Assembly (NCBI GenBank): GCA_947446925.1
Contig: CANFHU010000007.1
Coordinates: 54,905-118,904 of the forward strand
Length of the DNA stretch: 64,000 bases
Source of the DNA: Flavobacteriia bacterium
GTDB taxonomy: Bacteria; Bacteroidota; Bacteroidia; Flavobacteriales_D; Crocinitomicaceae
Direction of reading: 5' to 3'
Within the stretch, counting starts at the first letter, position 1. Each line of letters opens with the position of its first letter. The notes under the pieces are model-generated. The model was not told where the DNA came from. It did not search any database and worked only from the letters and a program-made list of their open reading frames with translations. The position numbers and the translations under genes are program-made. Of this stretch, positions 3,168-16,094 are shown piece by piece.

Positions 3168-3323
3168 TTAATTGAGGTGAACCAAGGTTTGTTCGTTCAA
3201 TACCTTCACTGTAGTCACAGACTTGCTGTAATTTAAAATTGCTTCGATTGTTTTAGTGGATGGTTCGCTAGCTAAAACAGCTGATGAAGTCGGAGTAATT
3301 GTTTTAGAGTAGTGTTTATTCAT
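3168..3323 (-). CDS. 51-aa small protein downstream of the LRR kinase
   Basis: This ORF is too short for the supplied track. It reads MNKHYSKTITPTSS and ends SVTTVKVLNEQTLVHLN, is rich in Ser and Thr, and has no signal peptide or double-glycine motif. It lies 72 bp downstream of the kinase stop on the same strand and ends just before the efp terminator. The ...TIEAILNYSKS... core reminds me of small conserved Bacteroidota proteins of unknown function, but that is weak recall. It could be a substrate, a partner or an unrelated gene. Confidence 0.5.
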   Translation of the reverse strand: MNKHYSKTITPTSSAVLASEPSTKTIEAILNYSKSVTTVKVLNEQTLVHLN

Positions 3324-3395
3324 AGTTACTTTTTGAGGTTATAAAATAGATAACGTGAAGTTTATTGGTTTCGTATAAATCAGTGTGCTTTTTTT

Positions 3396-4682
3396 CTACA
3401 GATCTTCTAAAAATTTCACTACCTCCTCAAAACTTGGTCGTTCCATCACTACTTCTAGCATACATTGCTCAGATAGTTTAATCAGCGATGCTTTACCTTC
3501 TTCATTGTCATGCATTAGCGATGCAATATCTTGCACTAAACAACCAAAAGCACGTACATCCAAACGTTCTAAATAAGGGGCTATTTCCGAGTTGTTATCA
3601 TAAAAAGTGGCAGCTCCAAAATCACCAAAATAAGCCTTTCCTTCCGAATTGTATAAGGTGTTGTGCGCATATAAATCCCCATGCATAATTCCTCGTGCAT
3701 GCAGGTGTTTAGCTGCTTGTAAGACTCCTTTAAGTATACATAATCCTTTGGTAAACGTAAACTTTTGATCTCTAGAAAAAACATCACGGGTACATGTGGC
3801 AAAACTTGGTGGTTGACCCAAATTTCTATACTCCGAAGGAATTAACTCCATTACAATCCCTTGTTTTCCTTCTGGATGCTTTGAAATTATTCCTGTTAAA
3901 GGAACAATGTTTTCATGTAAACCAGTTGACAAACAAGTTGCTAATTCGTCATTTGGGTATCCATCACTTGTTACATCTCCTTTGAAAATTTTAATCGCCA
4001 CTTCATTTTCTCCGTCGATTATTGCTTTGCAAATAATACCAGATGCACCTTCCCCAAGTTGTTGTTCAACATGTATACGCGACCAATCGATACGTGGTAA
4101 TTGGACTTCGTTTGTCGGCAGATAGGTAGAAGGATTTCCAGAGAATGCTAACCAAGATAATTTTGGCATTTGCACTAACCAAGTTGGAATCTTAACAAGT
4201 TGGTTTGCAGAAATTCGAAGTAATTCCAAATTTTTACATTGTGCTAATTCCTCTGGTAATTCTGTTAAACGATTCCCAGCCAACATGCATTTTTGTAATT
4301 GTTGATGTTGACCTATTGATTTCGGTAATTTATCAATACAATTATCGGTTAACGTCAACCACTGAATGTTTAATGGAATTGAATTTTCAGGAAATTCGAT
4401 CAATTGATTTGACTTAAAACCTATCATCGTCAATGCAGGACAATCGGCTAATTGTTTGGGAAAAACAGTAAACTTATTTTGCGAAAAAAAAGCAATTTTC
4501 AATTTGGTAAAACGGTACATATCTTCCGGTAAACTAGATAGTTGATTACCAGATAAATCAAGGATTTCTATAGTTTCAGCATAGTCAAATAAAACTTGTG
4601 GAAATTCTGTTAATCCACATGAAAGTGTAATTCTTGTTGGATTCGAAAAGTTCCCTGATTGTAGGTCTTTTAAAGTCGTCAT
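3396..4682 (-). CDS. Leucine-rich-repeat protein kinase
   Basis: The 428-residue protein has about seven leucine-rich repeats (residues 20-190; e.g. IEILDLSGNQLSSLP, NLELLRISANQLVKIP) and then a eukaryote-like protein kinase domain (about 205-428). The kinase residues are intact: glycine loop GEGASG (210-215), VAIK lysine Lys231, catalytic HGDLYAHN (Asp336) and metal-binding DFG (354-356). There is no membrane segment, so it is cytoplasmic. It follows the PCAT exporter by about 107 bp on the same strand. Its target is unknown; LRR-kinases of this design occur sporadically in Bacteroidota and Proteobacteria. Confidence 0.9.
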   Translation of the reverse strand: MTTLKDLQSGNFSNPTRITLSCGLTEFPQVLFDYAETIEILDLSGNQLSSLPEDMYRFTKLKIAFFSQNKFTVFPKQLADCPALTMIGFKSNQLIEFPENSIPLNIQWLTLTDNCIDKLPKSIGQHQQLQKCMLAGNRLTELPEELAQCKNLELLRISANQLVKIPTWLVQMPKLSWLAFSGNPSTYLPTNEVQLPRIDWSRIHVEQQLGEGASGIICKAIIDGENEVAIKIFKGDVTSDGYPNDELATCLSTGLHENIVPLTGIISKHPEGKQGIVMELIPSEYRNLGQPPSFATCTRDVFSRDQKFTFTKGLCILKGVLQAAKHLHARGIMHGDLYAHNTLYNSEGKAYFGDFGAATFYDNNSEIAPYLERLDVRAFGCLVQDIASLMHDNEEGKASLIKLSEQCMLEVVMERPSFEEVVKFLEDL

Positions 4683-4789
4683 AAAACAAAAATAGGTAAA
4701 TATCCATGAATTATGACTAATAAATAAACGACTAATTAGTATCGTTAATTTCGCTAAAGCAAGAGAATTGTGGTTTATAAAACCGAAAA

Positions 4790-6970
4790 TTATTCCATTT
4801 GATTTTTTACTAATTCAAAATACTTTCCTTTTTGAGAAAGTAATTCATGGTGGTTACCTTTTTCGACTAATTTTCCTTCATGCATCACTAAAATCATATC
4901 GGCATTTTTCACTGTACTTAAACGATGTGCAACCAAAATGACGGTTTTACCAATAAAATAATGGTGTAAATTTTTCATTATTTGCGCTTCGTTTTCCGTA
5001 TCTAAGGCGGAAGTAGCTTCATCAAAAATAAAATAGGCTGCTTTTTTGTAGACTGCCCGAGCAATCAATACACGTTGCTTTTGACCACCACTCAATTGTA
5101 AGCCATTGACACCAATTTTAGTTTCTAAATTCCCTCTAAGATTGTCCCTGACAAATTCTGTAAGATTTGCAATTTCAATGGCAAGTTGGAATCGTTCCAA
5201 ATCAATTTCTTCTTCGTTTCCTAAAATAATATTGTATAAAAAAGATTGATCAAAAAGATATCCTTGTTGCATCACGGTTGAAAGTTGACTTCGTAACACT
5301 CTAGAAGGCAGTTGGTTCAAGGCATGATTACCTATCTTTAATTCCCCTTCATATTCTTGATAATAACCTAAAATTAAGCGTAATATCGTCGTTTTCCCAC
5401 TCCCGCTCTCCCCTACAATGGCAGTCGTTTTTCCTACAGGAATTACCAAATTTAAGTCTTGAATCATTGATTTATATTGACCATAATATTTAAAATTAAA
5501 AGAACTAAAAACAATATCCCCAGGAATTAACTCCATACTTGTTGTTGAATTTTCTTCTTTCAATAATTGAATACTCAACAAACGATTCATACTTAACTTC
5601 GCTTCTTGTAAAGAATGTGCAAAAGTTAAAAGTTGATTCAACGGATTCGTCGCTTGACCCAACACGAATGACAAACTCAGTAAACCTCCAAAAGAAAGTT
5701 GCTCGTTCATAACTAGTTGTGCTGCTAGGTAGGTAATTATAATGTTCTTTCCAGATTGAAAAAACGAATAACCTATGGATTGAAACATGTCGATTTTCGT
5801 GCTTTTCAGAGAAAGTTTAACCGAATCCTGTTGGGTTGTTTTCCAATTCGCATTTTGTTGTTCTTCCACTCCAAACAACTTTACGTCTTGTATTCCTCCA
5901 ACGATCTCGTGAAGAATATTCTGACTCTCCACGTGTTTTTGAAATTGTAAATATTCCACTTTTCTACGTTTAGCTTGAAATGCATACATCCAAACAATTC
6001 CGAGTAGTATACTAACTATGAAAATAGTAAATATGGTCACACCATACATCCAAACCACAAACGAATAGATGATAATATTGGTAACCGAAAACAAAGTATT
6101 AACTAGATCAGAAGTCAAAAACTGCTCCAATCGCGAGTGGTCATTGATTCGTTGTGAAAGATCTCCATATGATTTTGCGTCAAAAAATCGCATCGGTAAT
6201 TTGAACAATTTCTGAAGAAAATCTTGAATAATATCTAGACCAATTTTACCTGAAACATAGGTCGTTAACCAGGTTCTAAAAAATGAGATCAATGAATCTC
6301 CAAAAAATAACCCGAGTTGAGAAAAGAGTAACAATTGAAGTAGTTGTTCATTTTTAAATTTCATTGCTTTGTCAACCATCAACTGAGTTGTGTAAGGAAT
6401 AATCAACGTGACTGCACTTGCTAAAATCATCAATCCGATGATTTGTAAAAATTGACGATAATAGGTTTTGATGTATTTGAGAGTGTATTTCGAAACTTCA
6501 AAATTACGTTGTTGGTTTTTCAAATTATCGAAAGCAGCTTCTTTGGTGAAAAGCATTACATAGCCAAAATCTGCATCCTGTTTCAAAAAGTGTTTTACAA
6601 AAACAGCTTTCGTAATCTTATGTTTTTTAAAAGCCGGGTCAGCAATGTAATAATAGGTTGTACGACCAATGTTTTTCACCTTGTACAATACGACAAAATG
6701 GTTATTGTTCCAATGAAGTATACAAGGTAATGCCTCCTCCGAAAAATCATCCACGCCCATCCGAATTGCTGAGCTTGACATACCCAGTTGCTGAGCAGCG
6801 GTCGACAAACTCATAAAATCGATGCCCAATACAGACTTTTGACAAAGTTCATTTAAATAGTCTAAAGAATACTTAGCACCGAAGTAGCGCGCTACCATAG
6901 ACAAACAAGCGGTACCACAGTCGGTACTATCTATTTGTCGGATAAATTTTATTTTTCGAGAGGAGAACAT
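4790..6970 (-). CDS. Peptidase-containing ABC exporter (PCAT, C39 peptidase type)
   Basis: The 726-residue protein has an N-terminal C39 cysteine peptidase (residues 1-145) with catalytic Cys18 in DSTDCGTACL, His91 in NNHFVVL and Asp111 in IADPA. A six-helix ABC membrane domain follows (about 165-450), then an ATPase with Walker A GESGSGKTT, signature LSGGQKQRV and Walker B FIFDEATSALD. Every catalytic residue is present. Such exporters cut double-glycine leaders and export the core peptide across the inner membrane. Two GG-leader peptide genes lie directly upstream (7076-7222, 7357-7524), so the substrate assignment is strong. No HlyD-type adaptor or modification enzyme is adjacent. Confidence 0.95.
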   Translation of the reverse strand: MFSSRKIKFIRQIDSTDCGTACLSMVARYFGAKYSLDYLNELCQKSVLGIDFMSLSTAAQQLGMSSSAIRMGVDDFSEEALPCILHWNNNHFVVLYKVKNIGRTTYYYIADPAFKKHKITKAVFVKHFLKQDADFGYVMLFTKEAAFDNLKNQQRNFEVSKYTLKYIKTYYRQFLQIIGLMILASAVTLIIPYTTQLMVDKAMKFKNEQLLQLLLFSQLGLFFGDSLISFFRTWLTTYVSGKIGLDIIQDFLQKLFKLPMRFFDAKSYGDLSQRINDHSRLEQFLTSDLVNTLFSVTNIIIYSFVVWMYGVTIFTIFIVSILLGIVWMYAFQAKRRKVEYLQFQKHVESQNILHEIVGGIQDVKLFGVEEQQNANWKTTQQDSVKLSLKSTKIDMFQSIGYSFFQSGKNIIITYLAAQLVMNEQLSFGGLLSLSFVLGQATNPLNQLLTFAHSLQEAKLSMNRLLSIQLLKEENSTTSMELIPGDIVFSSFNFKYYGQYKSMIQDLNLVIPVGKTTAIVGESGSGKTTILRLILGYYQEYEGELKIGNHALNQLPSRVLRSQLSTVMQQGYLFDQSFLYNIILGNEEEIDLERFQLAIEIANLTEFVRDNLRGNLETKIGVNGLQLSGGQKQRVLIARAVYKKAAYFIFDEATSALDTENEAQIMKNLHHYFIGKTVILVAHRLSTVKNADMILVMHEGKLVEKGNHHELLSQKGKYFELVKNQME

Positions 6971-6987
6971 TAGGTATTAATTGATTA

Positions 6988-7061
6988 GAGAAGCAAGGAT
7001 AAGTTTGTAAATTTTAATGAGGTTAACCTCATATCAGTTGATTTGTCCTTCCTTGCTTCTC
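6988..7061 (-). promoter_or_regulatory. Long hairpin between peptide genes and exporter
   Basis: Perfect 12-bp arms GAGAAGCAAGGA (6988-6999) and TCCTTGCTTCTC (7050-7061) enclose a 16-bp perfect palindrome ATGAGGTTAACCTCAT (7017-7032). It lies between the stop of the second peptide gene and the exporter start. It could be an attenuator or processing site that lets peptides be made in excess over the exporter, with the inner palindrome a possible protein site. Confidence 0.6.
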
Positions 7062-7075
7062 AAGGTTATTAGATA

Positions 7076-7222
7076 TTACCAAAAAATTGTAACCGTAAAT
7101 GTAGTTGTAGTTTTAGTCGTAGTTTTTGATGCCACGATTGCAATTTTTCTTGGAGTTGTAGCTGATTCTAAACCTCCCATAATTACTAATTGTTCTTCGA
7201 TTGTGATTAATTGATTTTTCAT
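7076..7222 (-). CDS. Double-glycine-leader precursor peptide B (48 aa)
   Basis: This ORF is missing from the track because it is short. The leader MKNQLITIEEQLVIMGG ends in Gly-Gly with hydrophobic residues at the expected -4, -7 and -12 positions, as C39 peptidases require. The predicted 31-residue core begins LESATTPRKIAIVA, contains a threonine run (SKTTTKTTTTFTV) and ends in Trp. There is no Cys, so no lanthionine or disulphide. It shares a Pro-Arg-Lys near the core N-terminus with peptide A. It sits 105 bp upstream of the PCAT gene and is the likely substrate. Confidence 0.85.
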   Translation of the reverse strand: MKNQLITIEEQLVIMGGLESATTPRKIAIVASKTTTKTTTTFTVTIFW

Positions 7223-7283
7223 TTTTTAAAATTTAAATTGTTATAAAATATTCCTTTAAGTTTTACCACATCAAAGGATTACG

Positions 7284-7334
7284 GTGGTGATGTACATCGC
7301 TTATCGAAATCGATTTAAGGCCCTACGACTTCAA
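7284..7334 (-). promoter_or_regulatory. Conserved upstream element, copy 2 (before peptide B)
   Basis: On the minus strand there is a hairpin TTGAAGTCG...CGATTTCGA (9 bp with two G-U pairs, 13-base loop; 7304-7312 with 7326-7334). It is followed by the perfect palindrome GATGTACATC (7289-7298). The same arrangement occurs exactly 300 bp away before peptide A. It may be a structured leader RNA or an operator. Confidence 0.65.
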
Positions 7335-7356
7335 TGCGAATATTTTTTTTCTCTTA

Positions 7357-7524
7357 TTAATAACTAATAATCGGAGTGAATGTTGTTGGAAAAGGATTAG
7401 GATTATATGGAGGCGTTCCCGTTGGAAATGGCAATTTTGGTTTTCTAGGACCGATTTCATTTCCACCCATAACTTTTCCTAACTCATCTATCGCAATAGA
7501 TGCAGTGTTTGTTTTATTGTTCAT
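7357..7524 (-). CDS. Double-glycine-leader precursor peptide A (55 aa)
   Basis: This short ORF is absent from the track. The leader MNNKTNTASIAIDELGKVMG ends in Gly-Gly at residues 20-21, with Ile/Leu/Val at leader contact positions typical of C39 substrates. The predicted 34-residue core is proline-rich (GPRKPKLPFPTGTPPYNPNP) and ends in Tyr. It lacks Cys. Its leader is similar in pattern to peptide B, but the core differs, which suggests two products of one exporter. It lies between the outer-membrane barrel gene and peptide B on the same strand. Confidence 0.88.
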   Translation of the reverse strand: MNNKTNTASIAIDELGKVMGGNEIGPRKPKLPFPTGTPPYNPNPFPTTFTPIISY

Positions 7525-7583
7525 CTTAAAAAAATTACATTGATTTTCTGTTCACCAAAGTTTATTCACATTCGGTGTTCCTG

Positions 7584-7632
7584 GTGACGATGTACATCAG
7601 TTCTTAAAGTCTTTTTGGGCCTTCGACTTTAA
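7584..7632 (-). promoter_or_regulatory. Conserved upstream element, copy 1 (before peptide A)
   Basis: On the minus strand TTAAAGTC and GACTTTAA (7625-7632 with 7604-7611) pair around a 13-base loop. The palindrome GATGTACATC (7589-7598) follows, and then CACC. Copy 2 keeps the pairing with different bases, which supports a real hairpin. Peptide A starts 64 nt after the palindrome. Confidence 0.65.
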
Positions 7633-7650
7633 TCTCTAATAAGTAGGTGA

Positions 7651-10017
7651 TTATTCTTTTGTACGTTCGATTTCTTCGGTGTTTTTGATCTCACGATCTT
7701 CCACTTGCACTTTAGTATTTCCAAAATTATAAGTCAATGAAAAACGAGCTGAACGTTGATCTTGATAATTCATTACATCCAACAACACTCCGTTAGAATA
7801 CATTTGCAATTTTGGTCTCATAGATCGAAAAATATCGTTAAATGTAATCCCTAATACAAACTTCTTATTCTTTGTGCGATACAAAAACCCTGGATTTATA
7901 GTATAGAACGTTTGCATTTTCACTAATCCAGTTATTCCAGGAAAACTATATATTACTCCCAAATTCATTGTCAATCCTTTTAATGGCATTTTTATCTGAT
8001 TGTTAAGATTTATGGAAGAACTGAATCCTTTTAAGGAAGAGTAAGTGATTTCAGAATTGGAATATGAATTGGAGTAAATTAAATCCCATTGAACATCAGA
8101 TTGTATTACCCTGTTTTTTATGGAATATACCGAAGCTAATGATAGGATGTCAGAAGTTAAAAAATTCAGATTAGTATATACTTGTGTATTTGTTTTTTGA
8201 TCGACAATTGGAATTTGGCTATATAAATTCTCATTATGAGAATAATTTAAAGTACTCGAAAATTTGTCTTTAAAAATATAGTAAATGTCGATGTTGTTTG
8301 TAAATGAAGGTCTAAGAAATGGATTACCGATTGAATACTGATTTGCATTCATATACAATCTAAAAGGATTTAATTCTGAATAATTTGGTCTGTCGATTCT
8401 CCTAGAGTAAGACCCTCCTAAATATACCTCTTCTTTCAAAGCATAGAGCACATATAAAGACGGGAAAAATTTCAAATAATTATAGTTATTTACAGTATTG
8501 TAAGTAAATGACTTACTTTCAATGATCGAATTCTCCGCACGTATGCCAGCACTAATTTCCAACTTATTGAATGATTTAGAAAACGTAAAATACAAAGATT
8601 GAATCTTTTCATTATACAAAAACTTATCTTTTTCAAGAAGTTGTGGCAAATTATTTACTTTATACTCATTATCAAAAAAATTAAGATTTTCATTACTGCT
8701 AAGCCTTCCTCCAGTAGAAATTAAAAATTTCTCAAAAGGCAATTCAAAATCTACATCTAAAGAATTAGATAATACCTCCTGTATACTTGATGTTTGTATA
8801 GTAGACAAATTATATGGTGAAAATAAAAATTGTGTATAACTTTCGACTAATCGATTTTTGGATTGATCATAACTGAAATTATTGTAATCTATCGACATTT
8901 TTTTTCCTAGTGTATCAAAAATGTAAGAATAATTTAATCCTGTATTGATTGACTTTAAATTAGAATTACCATCTCCAAAAGATTTTGTAATTGAATCACT
9001 AATCAAATTTCTAAGGTAATTAATATTAGTTGTATTCGTAAGTGTAGGTTGAGAAGAATTAATTTGGGTAGAAAGTACAATTCTTGATCTTTCATTAATT
9101 TTATACGTTAGATTAGCGTTATTACTTAATCCAACTTGATTGTTTTTTGCAACGGAATTATTTTGATTATTACTCGTTGGTAATTTCAAATCAACATCTA
9201 TTAATTGTTGAAATACATTTTGACTTGCGCTTAGTCTATTCTTAAAACTTATTTTTCCCTTATTATAAGTCAGTCCTCCACTTACAGACTCTGACCAATA
9301 GGTATTTCTAGAAATTGATGAATTTACGTCTCCAGTATATCCTTTCTTCAATACCGACTTCAAAACAATATTTATAATCCCAGAAGAACCCTCAGCTTGA
9401 TATTTTGCTGGAGGATTACTTATAACTTCGATACGAGAAACATCCTCGCTTGGCACATTCATTAAATAATTGATTAAGTCTTCTCCAGCCAACTGTACCA
9501 CCTGATTATCGATGTATATGATTACTTCTCCTTTACCTACAATCTTTACGGATTTATCATCAACCCGAACTCCTGGTGTCATTGCTAACATGTTATAAAG
9601 ATTATTCCCATAGGAAATCAAAGAATTCTCCACATGAAACACCATACGATCCGCATTGCGTTTAAACACTGGTTTTTTATTATTAATAGTCGCTGCCTCT
9701 AATTGTTTGGACTTCGCCATTTCAATCACAATGGTGGTATCACTAGAAATCATGGCAACTTGCTCCGTTACCACTCCGTATTGCGAAACTTTAAACGAAT
9801 ATTCTCCTGCAATAACTTTTTGAAATACACATATTCCGCTACTATCTGTATATTCCGTTTGTAAAAAAGCATCTTGCTGACGCAATGAAACGGTTGTCAA
9901 TTCCATCCCTTTACCTTTAAAATCTATAATTTTTGTTGTAACCTTGAACTGAGCTTGTACGCTTGTTACTAGAAGACAAGAAATAAAAAAAAGGAATAAA
10001 TAGAAGTACTTTTTCAT
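7651..10017 (-). CDS. Outer-membrane beta-barrel family protein (TonB-receptor-like)
   Basis: The 788-residue protein has a signal peptide (MKKYFYLFLFFISCLLVTSV), a carboxypeptidase-regulatory-like domain (about 22-105), a plug-like region (MLAMTPGVRVDD ... EGSSGIINIVLKS) and a long beta-barrel of the OMP_b-brl type to the C-terminus. It belongs to the Bacteroidota TonB-dependent receptor superfamily, whose members import or pass large ligands. It is the first gene of the minus-strand block containing the GG-peptides and the PCAT, about 127 bp upstream of peptide A. Linkage to the peptides (receptor or exit route) is inference from position. Confidence 0.88.
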   Translation of the reverse strand: MKKYFYLFLFFISCLLVTSVQAQFKVTTKIIDFKGKGMELTTVSLRQQDAFLQTEYTDSSGICVFQKVIAGEYSFKVSQYGVVTEQVAMISSDTTIVIEMAKSKQLEAATINNKKPVFKRNADRMVFHVENSLISYGNNLYNMLAMTPGVRVDDKSVKIVGKGEVIIYIDNQVVQLAGEDLINYLMNVPSEDVSRIEVISNPPAKYQAEGSSGIINIVLKSVLKKGYTGDVNSSISRNTYWSESVSGGLTYNKGKISFKNRLSASQNVFQQLIDVDLKLPTSNNQNNSVAKNNQVGLSNNANLTYKINERSRIVLSTQINSSQPTLTNTTNINYLRNLISDSITKSFGDGNSNLKSINTGLNYSYIFDTLGKKMSIDYNNFSYDQSKNRLVESYTQFLFSPYNLSTIQTSSIQEVLSNSLDVDFELPFEKFLISTGGRLSSNENLNFFDNEYKVNNLPQLLEKDKFLYNEKIQSLYFTFSKSFNKLEISAGIRAENSIIESKSFTYNTVNNYNYLKFFPSLYVLYALKEEVYLGGSYSRRIDRPNYSELNPFRLYMNANQYSIGNPFLRPSFTNNIDIYYIFKDKFSSTLNYSHNENLYSQIPIVDQKTNTQVYTNLNFLTSDILSLASVYSIKNRVIQSDVQWDLIYSNSYSNSEITYSSLKGFSSSINLNNQIKMPLKGLTMNLGVIYSFPGITGLVKMQTFYTINPGFLYRTKNKKFVLGITFNDIFRSMRPKLQMYSNGVLLDVMNYQDQRSARFSLTYNFGNTKVQVEDREIKNTEEIERTKE

Positions 10018-11558: not shown

Positions 11559-13039
11559 GAAATATTTTTTACAAAGTTTGTACTCGCACTAATTAATGGA
11601 TGTAAATAACAATCTTCCTCTACAAATGGCACTACTTCACGGTACGAAGCATGTAAACTTTGTAAAATGGAACTTGATTTTAAAGGCTTTCTGAATTCGT
11701 ATGCTTGCGCTGCGTTTAACAATTCAATTCCCTGAATCGTATAACAATTCTCCAACACACGGTATAATTTTGTTGCTGCATTTGCCCCCATACTCACGTG
11801 GTCTTCTTGCCCATTGGAAGAATCTACAGTATCACAACTTGCTGGAAAACAAAGCGATTTATTTTGACTCACAATCGAGGCACAGGTATATTGTGGAATC
11901 ATGAACCCAGAATTTAAGCCTGGATTTGCCACTAAGAATGCTGGTAAACCTCTTGTCCCTGAAATCAATTTATACACACGACGCTCAGAGATACTTCCCA
12001 TTTCAGCCATTGCCAATGCTAAGAAATCCATCGATATCGCCAATGGTTGTCCGTGGAAATTTCCTGCTGAAACTACCAACCCTTCTTCTGGGAAAATCGT
12101 AGGATTATCAGTCACCGCATTGATTTCGTTTTCAACTACTTTCGCACAATGTTCGATCGCATCATAACTTGCACCATGCACTTGTGGTATACATCTAAAC
12201 GAATATGGATCTTGTACGTGCGCTTTTTCTTGCGCTACAATCTGACTTCCTTTCAATAAATTGCGCATTTCTTCTGCGGCATGTATTTGACCTGCTTGTT
12301 TACGAATTTCATTCACAGAAACGCCAAACGGCTCGATACGACCATCGTACCCTTCTAAGGATAAAGCTGCAATGTGGTTGAATTGATTCCATAATTTATA
12401 GGAAGTTGCTACTGCATACGAAGCATAACTACTCATGAATTGTGTTCCGTTCAACAAGGCCAAACCTTCTTTGGATTGCAATTCTACTGGCTCTAATCCA
12501 CAAATTGCTAAAACCTCTCTTCCCGAAAAACGTTTTCCTTGGTAGGCAACTTCTCCTTCTCCAAAAATCGGTAAAGACAAATGAGCCAAGGGCGCTAAAT
12601 CTCCCGAAGCACCTAAACTTCCTTGTTGGTAAACAATTGGTAAAATATCGTTATTGAAGAAATACACCAAACGCTCTACCGTTGCTAATTGTACCCCTGA
12701 ATGTCCGTGCGACAAACCTAATACTTTCAATAAAAGCATACGTTTCACCAAATGACTAGGAACTTCTTCTCCAGCCCCACAAGCATGGGAAAGCACTAAG
12801 TTTTTCTGTAATAATGCTAAATCTTCGTTTGGAATCACGGTATTACACAAGGAACCAAATCCAGTGTTAATTCCATAAATAACGCGATTTTCCTTTGCAA
12901 CAACCTCATCCAGGTACGCACGACACTTCGTGATTTTTTCTTTTGCATTCTCGGATAATTCAATCGTATATCCTTCATTTAAAATCTCTTCTAGTTGTTC
13001 TAGAGAAATCCAATCGTTGTTAATTAAGTACTTTTTCAT
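11546..13039 (-). CDS. hutH: Histidine ammonia-lyase
   Basis: The 497-residue protein matches full-length HutH, which converts histidine to urocanate and ammonia. The self-forming MIO cofactor triplet Ala-Ser-Gly is at 144-146 in GSLGASGDLAPLAH. Other family motifs are YGINTGFGSL, the NPTIFPEEG region and QNKSLCFPASCDTVDSSNGQEDH. The rest of the hut pathway (hutU, hutI, hutG) is not in this window, so the gene is isolated from its pathway. Two uncharacterised membrane or secreted genes follow it in the same operon. Confidence 0.96.
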   Translation of the reverse strand: MKKYLINNDWISLEQLEEILNEGYTIELSENAKEKITKCRAYLDEVVAKENRVIYGINTGFGSLCNTVIPNEDLALLQKNLVLSHACGAGEEVPSHLVKRMLLLKVLGLSHGHSGVQLATVERLVYFFNNDILPIVYQQGSLGASGDLAPLAHLSLPIFGEGEVAYQGKRFSGREVLAICGLEPVELQSKEGLALLNGTQFMSSYASYAVATSYKLWNQFNHIAALSLEGYDGRIEPFGVSVNEIRKQAGQIHAAEEMRNLLKGSQIVAQEKAHVQDPYSFRCIPQVHGASYDAIEHCAKVVENEINAVTDNPTIFPEEGLVVSAGNFHGQPLAISMDFLALAMAEMGSISERRVYKLISGTRGLPAFLVANPGLNSGFMIPQYTCASIVSQNKSLCFPASCDTVDSSNGQEDHVSMGANAATKLYRVLENCYTIQGIELLNAAQAYEFRKPLKSSSILQSLHASYREVVPFVEEDCYLHPLISASTNFVKNISWKM

Positions 13040-13057
13040 TTTATTATTTTTATTCTT

Positions 13058-13073
13058 CCCCCTTGGAAGGGGG
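13058..13073. repeat. Short G/C-rich hairpin repeat upstream of hutH
   Basis: CCCCCTT and AAGGGGG form a 7-bp stem, followed by GACCGAGGGGGATG. Such 'ccccctt..aaggggg..agggggatg' units are dispersed in many Bacteroidota intergenic regions; it could end transcription from the upstream S41 gene. Confidence 0.5.
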
Positions 13074-13116
13074 ACCGAGGGGGATGACTCTGGTATCTTT
13101 CACCCCACTCATTTTA

Positions 13117-14517
13117 CTATTTAATTAAATTTTCAAAAACATATTTCAGTGCATTATCAGACTCTACTTCAAAATTTGGTGCTACACCAACTTTATCTAA
13201 TCTAACTCCGTCATTTGTAAAATAATCTGTTGTAGGCACAGTCAATATAAAGTCATCGGACAAATTAATAAAGGACATACCTAACATTGCGCCAGCAGTA
13301 TTCTCACCAACAACGATACCTCTTCCCGTATTTTTTAATGCGTATACTAAAGGTTCACAAGTACTTGCAGTACGTTTGTCTGTTAAAACAAATATTTTTC
13401 CTTTATAAACTTCTTTCGCTGGTATTACTTTTAATACAATTGCTTTTTCAGTTTTCATCTGAGCTAAAAACTGAAATAAATCTGGTTGAATTACATAAGG
13501 TAAGTCTGTATATTGCAGAGATGTTGGAATTACATTTGTTGAATCAAACCATCTTCTAGTCAGAAAAACACCTGTATTCAATTCATTTTCAATAACTCTT
13601 TTTCCAAACATTAATGAAGAAGCTATTCCTCCTCCACCATTTTTTCTTAAATCAACTATCAAATTTTTATAGTTTTTAGATAAAATAATTTTAAAAACAC
13701 TATCCATTTCTTCTGCAGAACCAGCAAAAGATTTGATTCTTAATATACCTGTTTGTCTTGACAAACTATCTGAAAGAAATACTGTATTGGAAGGAGTTCC
13801 ATTTCCAAATTCCATTTTTCGTATTAAATTAAAATGCGAAAAAGGAAATTTCTTATTTTTTCTAGTTGAAAAATAATGAAATATTAATAATTCTAAATCA
13901 TCCTCAATATGAATTGGTTTACGTAACTTATACTTGTATCTTTTCCAAATTCTATGATTTAAAATAGCCTTATCGTAGATATACTTACTTGTAGTATCAA
14001 TTATTCCTGACATTACTCTAGAATAATCAGTTGTATTTGTTGTTTCCTTATTTGAAAAAAATGTACCTATTTCAGAATGATTTATTTTAGAATAAATTGT
14101 ACCCGAAATTTTAGAATTGTAGAGATAACCTTCAATATCACCTGATTGATTTAAAACATCAGAATAAGTTCCCTTAATGAATAATGTATCATTCTTAAGA
14201 TAAGTTGTTCCATTAGTAATTTTAACCAACGATCCATCTGAAACACTTTTTATTACTTTTTTAATGAATTTAGATTTAATTGATCCAAAAAGATCCTTTA
14301 ATACATTTTTACGTGTATAAGCATTAAAGGTATTTGATTTGGTTTCAAAAATTAAATTAATTCTATATTCACCAAAATTAGTTTCAGGAAAAACTACATT
14401 CCATTTACCCTCCAATAAATTAGTCGAGTTATCTTTTTGGGCATGAACACTTAAAGAAAAGAAACCAATAATTACTATCGGAATAATTCTTAACAATTTT
14501 AATGTGTAATTTTTCAT
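13117..14517 (-). CDS. S41 family (C-terminal processing) peptidase, secreted
   Basis: The 466-residue protein has a signal peptide (LLRIIPIVIIGFFSLSVHAQ), a lineage-specific N-terminal beta domain and an S41 catalytic domain in the second half. IVDLRKNGGGGI and KIFVLTDKRTASTCEPLVYAL contain the catalytic Ser (TAST) and the conserved 'VGENTAGAML' loop. No PDZ domain is clear. S41 peptidases degrade or process exported proteins; the substrate here is unknown. A second, divergent S41 protein lies at 17277-18761. Confidence 0.87.
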   Translation of the reverse strand: MKNYTLKLLRIIPIVIIGFFSLSVHAQKDNSTNLLEGKWNVVFPETNFGEYRINLIFETKSNTFNAYTRKNVLKDLFGSIKSKFIKKVIKSVSDGSLVKITNGTTYLKNDTLFIKGTYSDVLNQSGDIEGYLYNSKISGTIYSKINHSEIGTFFSNKETTNTTDYSRVMSGIIDTTSKYIYDKAILNHRIWKRYKYKLRKPIHIEDDLELLIFHYFSTRKNKKFPFSHFNLIRKMEFGNGTPSNTVFLSDSLSRQTGILRIKSFAGSAEEMDSVFKIILSKNYKNLIVDLRKNGGGGIASSLMFGKRVIENELNTGVFLTRRWFDSTNVIPTSLQYTDLPYVIQPDLFQFLAQMKTEKAIVLKVIPAKEVYKGKIFVLTDKRTASTCEPLVYALKNTGRGIVVGENTAGAMLGMSFINLSDDFILTVPTTDYFTNDGVRLDKVGVAPNFEVESDNALKYVFENLIK

Positions 14518-14590
14518 TTATTACTTCTTTTCACCTCCCTCAATCCCTGCACTTACGTTTGGTCTTCGAAAGCAATGCTTTCTCTCCTCA

Positions 14591-14721
14591 CTTCGACAAG
14601 CTCAGTGTAAACTCGGGAAGTCTTAAATTTTGCTTCTATTTATTATCTTCAATCGTTTCCTTGTCTTCGACTACGCTCAGACTGACGGAAACCCTCTTCG
14701 TCCCCCTGAGCGGAGTCGAAG
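14591..14721. repeat. Dispersed CTTCGAC...CTCAG palindromic repeats
   Basis: Three half-palindromes occur here: CTTCGACAAGCTCAGTG (14591), CTTCGACTACGCTCAG (14665) and CTGAGCGGAGTCGAAG (14706, opposite orientation). Others in the window are at about 16147, 54031-54090 and 56519-56594, so this is a genome-wide repeat family. Confidence 0.8.
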
Positions 14722-14723
14722 GG

Positions 14724-16094
14724 CTACTTTTTAACTAAAGAGATCAACTCCTCCACACTCACTTCTTCCTGTTCTCCTGTTTCCATGTTTTTTAATTGGA
14801 TGATCTCATTGGCCATTTCATCTTCCCCAACAATCGCTACGTATTTCACGCGCACATCGTTTGCATACTTCATTTGCTTTTGCATTTTCGCTTTGGATGG
14901 ATACAATTCACAGGAAATACCGTTTTTACGAATGTCTTTCACCAATGGTAGACAATATGCTTCTTCCACTGCACCAAAATTCACGAACAATACTTCCAAT
15001 CCTTGCTCTACTTCTTTTGGAAACAATTCTAATTCTTTCAATACATCATAAATACGGTCAGCGCCAAACGAAATCCCTACACCAGACATATTTGGCATTC
15101 CAAACAAATCCGTCAAGTTATCGTAACGACCACCACCGCAAATACTTCCCATTTTTACGCCATCCGCTTTTACTTCGAAAATTGCTCCCGTATAGTAGTT
15201 CAAACCACGTGCTAAGGTCACATCAAACACCAAGCTTGCTTTTTCTAGACCTAGTTTCGTAGCCGTATCTAGCACATACACCAACTCTTCGATTCCTTTC
15301 AAACCAATTTCACTTGTCGCTAAATAGTTTTTCATCGCTTCGATGCGTTCTTGGTTCGAACCAGTCATCGTCAACAACGGCTTAATGCGTTCTATCGAAC
15401 TTTCAGCAACTCCTTTTTCCTGTAATTCTTTGATAACACCATCTTCCCCAATTTTATCTAACTTATCCAAAGCCACTGTGATGTCAATCAAACGATCAGA
15501 CTCCCCAGAAACCTCAGCGATTCCAGATAAAATTTTACGGTTATTGATATATATTGTGAAGGCTGGCAACTTTAAATTGCTCAACACCTCATCAAACAAC
15601 TGAATAAAATCCACTTCGTACAACAACGAGTCGCTTCCTACCACATCCGCATCGCATTGAAAAAACTCCTGGTAACGACCATGTTGCGGACGATCTGCTC
15701 TCCAAACCGGTTGAATTTGGTAACGCTTAAACGGAAACGATAATTCATTTTGGTGTTGAACCACAAAACGTGCAAACGGCACGGTCAAGTCATAACGCAA
15801 GGCTTTTTCCGCTAAGGAATTCGCAAAACGCGCTAAGTTCCCTTCTTCCAATGCTTGGATATCTGCTTTCTTTTGCTTGTCGCCCGAATTTAATATCCTA
15901 AAAATCAAACGATCTCCCTCTTCGCCATACTTCCCCATCAAGGTAGAAGACAACTCAAAGGAAGGAGTTTCAATCGGTAAGAATCCAAAGTTTTTATAAG
16001 AGGCCTTAATCGTGTCGAAGATATAATTTCTACGAGCTACTTCATAAGGTAAAAAATCACGTGTTCCTTTCGGTATGGATGGTTTTTGCGCCAT
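14724..16094 (-). CDS. hisS: Histidyl-tRNA synthetase
   Basis: The 456-residue class II synthetase charges tRNA-His. Motif 1 surrounds '[10 protein letters not shown]', motif 2 is [25 protein letters not shown], and the HisA and HisB signatures appear as [10 protein letters not shown] and [10 protein letters not shown]. Motif 3 follows in [13 protein letters not shown], and the C-terminal anticodon-binding domain ends in [14 protein letters not shown]. The gene looks complete and functional and is flanked by repeat-rich spacers, so it is probably transcribed alone. Confidence 0.97.

Follow-up and report, generated by a model that had tools for sequence, protein, structure and literature searches.

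How are small peptides moved across the outer membrane when the locus that encodes their exporter holds no HlyD? The question is raised by a locus on the minus strand of a 64,000-nucleotide stretch (hereafter the window) of contig CANFHU010000007.1, positions 54,905 to 118,904, from the assembly GCA_947446925.1 of a Flavobacteriia bacterium, a freshwater-type member of the Bacteroidota. The locus is a compact gene set in which two small putative secreted peptides, A and B, are encoded between the gene of an outer-membrane barrel and that of a peptidase-containing ATP-binding cassette (ABC) transporter (PCAT). We tentatively interpret it as a maturase-free four-gene secretion cassette for two unmodified peptides, in which a TonB-transporter-like barrel would carry out the outer-membrane step, the exit being its most likely role.

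Conserved unit of barrel, peptides and exporter

An earlier note on this DNA had pointed out two uncalled open reading frames (ORFs) with double-glycine (GG) leaders, one with a Pro-rich and one with a Thr-rich core, and both were present on the minus strand where it had placed them. The double glycine is found at residues 20-21 in peptide A and 16-17 in peptide B. Homologues with both leaders at the same place were identified in six further genomes, which also share the order barrel, A, B, PCAT. Thus A and B are kept in the same intergenic stretch in all seven PCAT-bearing genomes of the genus, and loss of the ORFs next to a retained PCAT, named beforehand as evidence against them, did not occur. 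The ratio of non-synonymous to synonymous changes (dN/dS) was 0.15-0.61 in seven pairs, mostly below 0.45 and always below 1, which indicates purifying selection, and in six of the seven pairs the differences were mostly at third codon positions. Judged by conservation and dN/dS, both uncalled ORFs are real genes.

The leaders are near-constant (MNNQTxTASIAIDEQGKIMGG in A, MKNxLTFTSISLDEQxTIxGG in B) and alike within and between the two peptides, so A and B are probably paralogues; the leader of B in the window is four residues shorter than those of its relatives. The cores, unlike the leaders, diverge strongly. Locus L052 possesses one extra A-type peptide besides A and B. In all 15 peptides the last residue is F, W or Y, compared to 8 of 116 other proteins sampled (7%), although the 15 are related by descent and their shared aromatic end does not represent 15 independent events; the terminal residue switches among the three across the set. 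Peptides A and B of the window have no Cys; elsewhere in the genus, a single Cys occurs in the B peptides of L051 and L052, and all other cores are Cys-free. Neither peptide matched a family in Pfam or NCBIfam, and no NCBIfam equivalog scored above cut-off for the locus proteins. As short, conserved ORFs with a hydrophobic GG leader and a linked C39 exporter, A and B belong to the double-glycine secreted peptides.

The PCAT harbours Peptidase_C39 (E 6e-30), ABC_membrane and ABC_tran domains according to Pfam, and the catalytic residues C18, H91 and D111, Walker A and LSGGQ are invariant in the PCATs of its relatives. It matches PCAT1 (4ry2) and ComA (8hf4) over the full length. The predicted position of the peptides between an OMP_b-brl barrel gene and an intact C39-ABC exporter is therefore borne out by Pfam and by the invariant motifs, as is the C39 Cys/His/Asp, transmembrane and ATPase composition of a PCAT. 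Divergence in the leader of A runs in parallel with that in the C39 domain (rho 0.79, p 0.002; 7 genomes, many pairs tested). Between B and the PCAT gene, a perfect 12-bp inverted repeat (GAGAAGCAAGGA/TCCTTGCTTCTC) spans 6988-7061, with similar arms in L053 and L056; it was rejected as a conserved feature, since the arms do not occur in L051, L052, L054 and L055.

The conserved unit in the seven genomes is the barrel gene, peptide A, peptide B and the PCAT (Table 1). As the earlier note had stated, no cyclase, dehydratase, HlyD adaptor or immunity protein is visible: no LanB, LanC, HlyD or immunity gene adjoins the cassette among the window neighbours. Its reading of the locus as something other than a standard bacteriocin locus is supported. 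The leucine-rich repeat (LRR) kinase that the same note placed after the PCAT does adjoin it in the window. However, L054 lacks it at the locus, and in L052 and L053 a pair of inverted genes, one of them encoding a WG-repeat protein, intervenes between kinase and PCAT. The kinase was therefore rejected as a component of the cassette.

Table 1. Features of the peptide export locus (positions within the window)
Feature	Position	Strand	Basis and details
OMP_b-brl_3 outer-membrane barrel, 788 aa, plug and N-terminal CarboxypepD-like domain	7651-10017	-	PF14905, AF2 model, Foldseek
Candidate RNA element A, upstream of peptide A	7525-7636	-	hairpin 1 7604-7632; GATGTACATC 7589-7598; hairpin 2 7553-7577; alignment and covariation
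Peptide A precursor, 55 aa	7357-7524	-	GG leader of 21; Pro-rich 34-aa core, end IISY
Candidate RNA element B, upstream of peptide B	7223-7338	-	hairpin 1 7303-7335; GATGTACATC 7289-7298; hairpin 2 7252-7278
Peptide B precursor, 48 aa	7076-7222	-	GG leader of 17; Thr-rich strand-like 31-aa core, end TIFW
PCAT (C39 peptidase and ABC transporter), 726 aa	4790-6970	-	Pfam, invariant motifs, structure matches
LRR and Ser/Thr kinase, neighbour outside the conserved unit	3396-4682	-	Pfam, gene-order comparison

Barrel and HlyD in PCAT loci of Bacteroidota

PCAT loci from the taxonomic order of the window were scored for barrel, HlyD and TolC with hidden Markov models (HMMs) built in this analysis. 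All strong-barrel-type loci lacked HlyD and TolC, and nearly all other loci carried HlyD directly after the PCAT. HlyD was detected neither in the window nor in its six relatives by this HMM search, which sets them apart from type I secretion loci. A separate phylum-wide sample, obtained with a different PCAT as query, revealed the same exclusion; since this query was itself a barrel-type PCAT, the class proportions are not a census. Among 90 loci dereplicated at 90% identity, by which L186 (the same as L063) was removed, nineteen had only the barrel and sixty-five only HlyD, while three had both and three neither (Fisher p 1.5e-13, a test that ignores descent). The earlier note regarded the barrel as a neighbouring receptor. 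Its presence is confirmed, but in the survey the barrel recurs at PCAT loci as an alternative to HlyD/TolC that is nearly mutually exclusive with them. Among open-licence papers, no description of a PCAT-barrel pairing was found.

In the PCAT tree, most barrel-type members are grouped in one deep clade (support 0.98), to which L236 and L231 are added elsewhere, and Fitch parsimony counted five barrel changes and four HlyD changes. The tree is best described as an early divergence between two outer-membrane solutions, followed perhaps by two further switches.

Distant PCATs of Flavobacterium, Tenacibaculum and Chryseobacterium are likewise accompanied by a barrel gene of this kind, and LanB/LanC or radical-SAM genes lie in between. 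The order barrel, GG peptides, maturase (where present), PCAT was found in the lanthipeptide loci L059, L062, L063 and L184 and in the radical-SAM loci L075, L143 and L183. Pfam identified LanB in L063 and L184 and radical-SAM maturases in L075, L143, L149, L177, L182, L183, L236 and L241; the tested neighbours in L187 and L234 had no Pfam match. The cassettes of the genus contain neither LanB/LanC nor a radical-SAM/SPASM maturase among their neighbours, an unlinked enzyme not having been searched for. As the barrel replaces HlyD in lanthipeptide and radical-SAM loci too, the present cassette belongs to a broader locus type, as a variant without maturase. In locus L241 (757-13569), one radical-SAM gene and one PCAT are surrounded by three barrels of the family, which have GG-type ORFs beside them.

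Predicted fold of the barrel

The barrel matched PF14905 (OMP_b-brl_3) with E 5.8e-70, while Pfam detected the plug domain only at E 0.014. An AlphaFold 2 (AF2) model from 11 sequences (pLDDT 78.7, pTM 0.69), which replaced a useless 6-sequence model (pLDDT 34), showed an N-terminal beta domain, a plug and about 22 strands. The best PDB matches of this model in Foldseek were PhuR, PirA, FecA, FhuE, FhuA and Cir, with TM-scores of about 0.5-0.6; a PDB search with the sequence gave no match. With its plug and about 22 strands, the barrel models as a TonB-dependent-transporter fold, similar to FecA, FhuA, PhuR and Cir. It differs from these transporters in its sequence (10-15% identity) and in being genetically tied to a peptide exporter. 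Barrels of the same tree clade in L102 and L116 have no PCAT nearby, thus the family is not exclusive to PCAT loci.

Paired RNA elements upstream of the peptide genes

The two repeated elements were not noticed in the earlier note. About 110 nucleotides preceding the ATG of all 15 peptide genes share a hairpin of the form AAAGTCG-loop-CGACTTT, followed by GATGTACATC and a second hairpin. RNAalifold predicted 17 pairs, nine of them with compensatory change on both sides. Counted by pairs, 92.5% were standard and 24 cells were double-changed, against 8.1 +/- 2.7 after shuffling; none of 500 shuffles reached the observed count, although relatedness can inflate this control. Pairing was roughly halved when the partners were slid by one column, a control with its own bias towards the derived structure. 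Single-sequence folding z-scores were modest (-0.1 to -3.1), and the structure claim accordingly rests on covariation.

A covariance model retrieved only the 15 training copies (E <= 0.01) in 240 genomes of the family, all at the cassette locus. No Rfam family matched the elements at E values up to 1. Hits in the other barrel-type loci did not exceed chance level, and the element was not found in L075, L143 and L149. The paired elements are hence a candidate for a new, genus-specific structured RNA, and we infer a cis-regulatory or mRNA-processing role for the peptide genes. The loops of element A (AGGCCC) and element B (GGGCCT) could pair exactly with each other; this pairing was not retained, because both loops are nearly invariant and give no covariation support. 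In L052, a third element-plus-peptide unit with a different core (A0, 8930-9230) precedes A and B, which suggests that element and peptide duplicate as one unit.

Divergence of the cassette in the genus

A close PCAT was present in seven of the 13 genomes of the genus (66-100% identity), and the same seven carry a close barrel. The other six possess no barrel ortholog at this identity, and the whole cassette is absent. The far-side neighbours HAL and HisS are 98-100% identical between species, compared to 55-84% for the barrel (partial in comparisons with genome G005) and 64-91% for the PCAT. Between L053 and L056 the barrels are 82% and the PCATs 66% identical; the two trees disagree, and identity varies in blocks along both genes. 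The locus therefore appears to be exchanged and diversifying.

Other genes near the cassette vary as well. The LRR kinase has a weak, sub-cut-off likeness to XopAC-type LRR proteins, and is 71-83% identical in those relatives that carry it at the locus. An inverted gene for a WG-repeat protein of about 1080-1090 aa lies past the PCAT in L052 (12194-16817), L053 (12194-16867) and L055 (9700-12939); in L052 and L053 the inverted stretch also holds a protein of about 440-455 aa with no family assignment. A second, different PCAT locus of the genus (L133, L135 and L136; genomes G001 and G010) encodes HlyD, TolC and other GG peptides, and L135 contains stand-alone C39-like ORFs at 12800-13153 and 14565-14918.

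Comparison with known systems

Similar to the cassette, the class I lanthipeptide loci of Flavobacterium (L062, L063) and Tenacibaculum (L059) encode a barrel, several GG peptides and a PCAT on one strand, with HlyD/TolC not detected. They differ in their own LanB, LanC and luciferase-like enzyme and in Cys-rich cores; no LanB, LanC or luciferase-like enzyme is found among the window neighbours, and the cores are Cys-free. Loci for radical-SAM ribosomally synthesised and post-translationally modified peptides (RiPPs), in Chryseobacterium sediminis (L075) and in L143, L149 and L183, likewise combine a PF14905 barrel, GG peptides and a PCAT without HlyD. However, they have their own radical-SAM/SPASM maturase and Cys-rich cores. 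The PCAT-HlyD-TolC type I secretion loci of the genus share the C39 ABC exporter and the GG peptides, but carry HlyD directly after the PCAT, then TolC, and no barrel of this type.

Bacteroidetocins (class IIf) are also Bacteroidota GG-leader peptides cut by a C39 ABC transporter, without an immunity gene. Their loci consist of a transmembrane protein, one 4-Cys peptide, a thiol oxidoreductase and a PCAT (PMC6671954). In the window there are two Cys-free peptides and an outer-membrane barrel, and the neighbours are others than the thiol oxidoreductase and 5-transmembrane protein of this class. In the Fap amyloid system, a C39 peptidase (FapD) and an outer-membrane barrel (FapF) serve one secretion pathway (PMC5557850). 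Nevertheless, FapD is periplasmic and not an ABC transporter, and FapF is a 12-stranded trimeric barrel.

Proposed mechanism and alternatives

In the proposed pathway, a structured two-hairpin RNA element is transcribed ahead of each peptide gene and probably sets its expression. Given the intact motifs and what is known of the family, the C39 domain would cut each precursor after the GG and the ABC part would move the cores of 31-34 residues into the periplasm. The near mutual exclusion with HlyD suggests that the outer-membrane step falls to the barrel, which would most likely serve as the exit in place of the HlyD-TolC tube. The conserved aromatic C-terminus, with its strand pattern and Phi-x-F/W/Y end, may speculatively be recognised by the barrel or by outer-membrane machinery.

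Several observations weigh against the barrel as an exit. We know of no TonB-dependent transporter that works as an exporter, and this barrel retains its plug and resembles importers in Foldseek; plug and fold argue for a receptor. Barrel-type PCATs fall mostly in one clade, thus the exclusion rests on few independent events, and the lanthipeptide-type PCAT loci L185 and L221 have neither HlyD nor a barrel nearby. Divergence of the cores did not correlate with that of barrel or PCAT across 7 genomes (rank correlation, best rho 0.22, p 0.18). Furthermore, neither HlyD nor a barrel is named in the four-gene set for bacteroidetocins (PMC6671954), so the outer-membrane step need not be encoded at the locus itself.

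The barrel could instead be a cognate receptor or re-uptake transporter, the peptides leaving elsewhere and the cell sensing or re-importing its own or kin peptide, a serious competitor that we still regard as doubtful. In siderophore and methanobactin loci, a secreted ligand is likewise encoded together with its own TonB-dependent transporter. Besides the plug, the barrel has a TonB-box-like stretch ahead of it (LEAATI, with a single variable position within the genus; EVEI-type elsewhere), and the fastest divergence is seen in its strands, whereas the plug remains at about 90%. For methanobactin, itself a RiPP, re-internalisation by a dedicated TonB-dependent transporter has been described (PMC9601215). 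However, the peptide cores hold no conserved metal ligands, and the Pfam scan reported no signalling STN domain in the barrel. A receptor role by itself also leaves the near absence of the barrel from HlyD-type PCAT loci without explanation, and for this reason we favour the exit.

A pair of small GG peptides, often basic, together with a single PCAT would also suit a two-peptide (class IIb) bacteriocin or microcin exported via housekeeping TolC, with the barrel as self-protection or decoy. Fast divergence and mosaic exchange between species agree with this, and bacteroidetocin loci likewise lack a recognisable immunity gene (PMC6671954). We consider it unlikely, as the two peptides have no immunity gene at the locus, no Cys and no similarity to known bacteriocin families in Pfam and NCBIfam, and the barrel is also kept at RiPP loci that differ considerably in their chemistry. 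Least probable, and in our view improbable by a wide measure, is that the processed peptides are retained in the periplasm or outer membrane, where they would serve as beta-signal-like ligands (Phi-x-aromatic C-terminus) of the barrel or of the barrel assembly machinery (BAM). The aromatic ends would fit, many cores show alternating hydrophobic residues (TYTVSISW-like stretches), and bacteroidetocins target BamA, where darobactin mimics the substrate recognition signal (PMC8546649). Nonetheless, the motif is short, the A cores are Pro-rich, and peptides of other barrel-type loci do not have it.

Reading the barrel as the exit, the purpose of the cassette is most likely strain-level signalling or antagonism, a view based on rapid divergence, as cores and barrel change fast and the flanking genes do not. 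It is possible, though we would not lean on it, that a TonB-transporter-like barrel is the outer-membrane exit for PCAT-processed peptides in general. Across Bacteroidota, lanthipeptide, radical-SAM and unmodified peptide loci would then share a route independent of HlyD/TolC, which in the present cassette is combined with a duplicated riboregulatory element, specific to the genus, before each peptide gene.

Implications

The cassette is a minimal four-gene case free of maturation enzymes, which makes the outer-membrane crossing of PCAT-exported peptides in HlyD-less Bacteroidota directly testable. A barrel that serves as the exit would mean export through a TonB-transporter fold; one that acts as the receptor would make the cassette a compact peptide signalling or recognition system.

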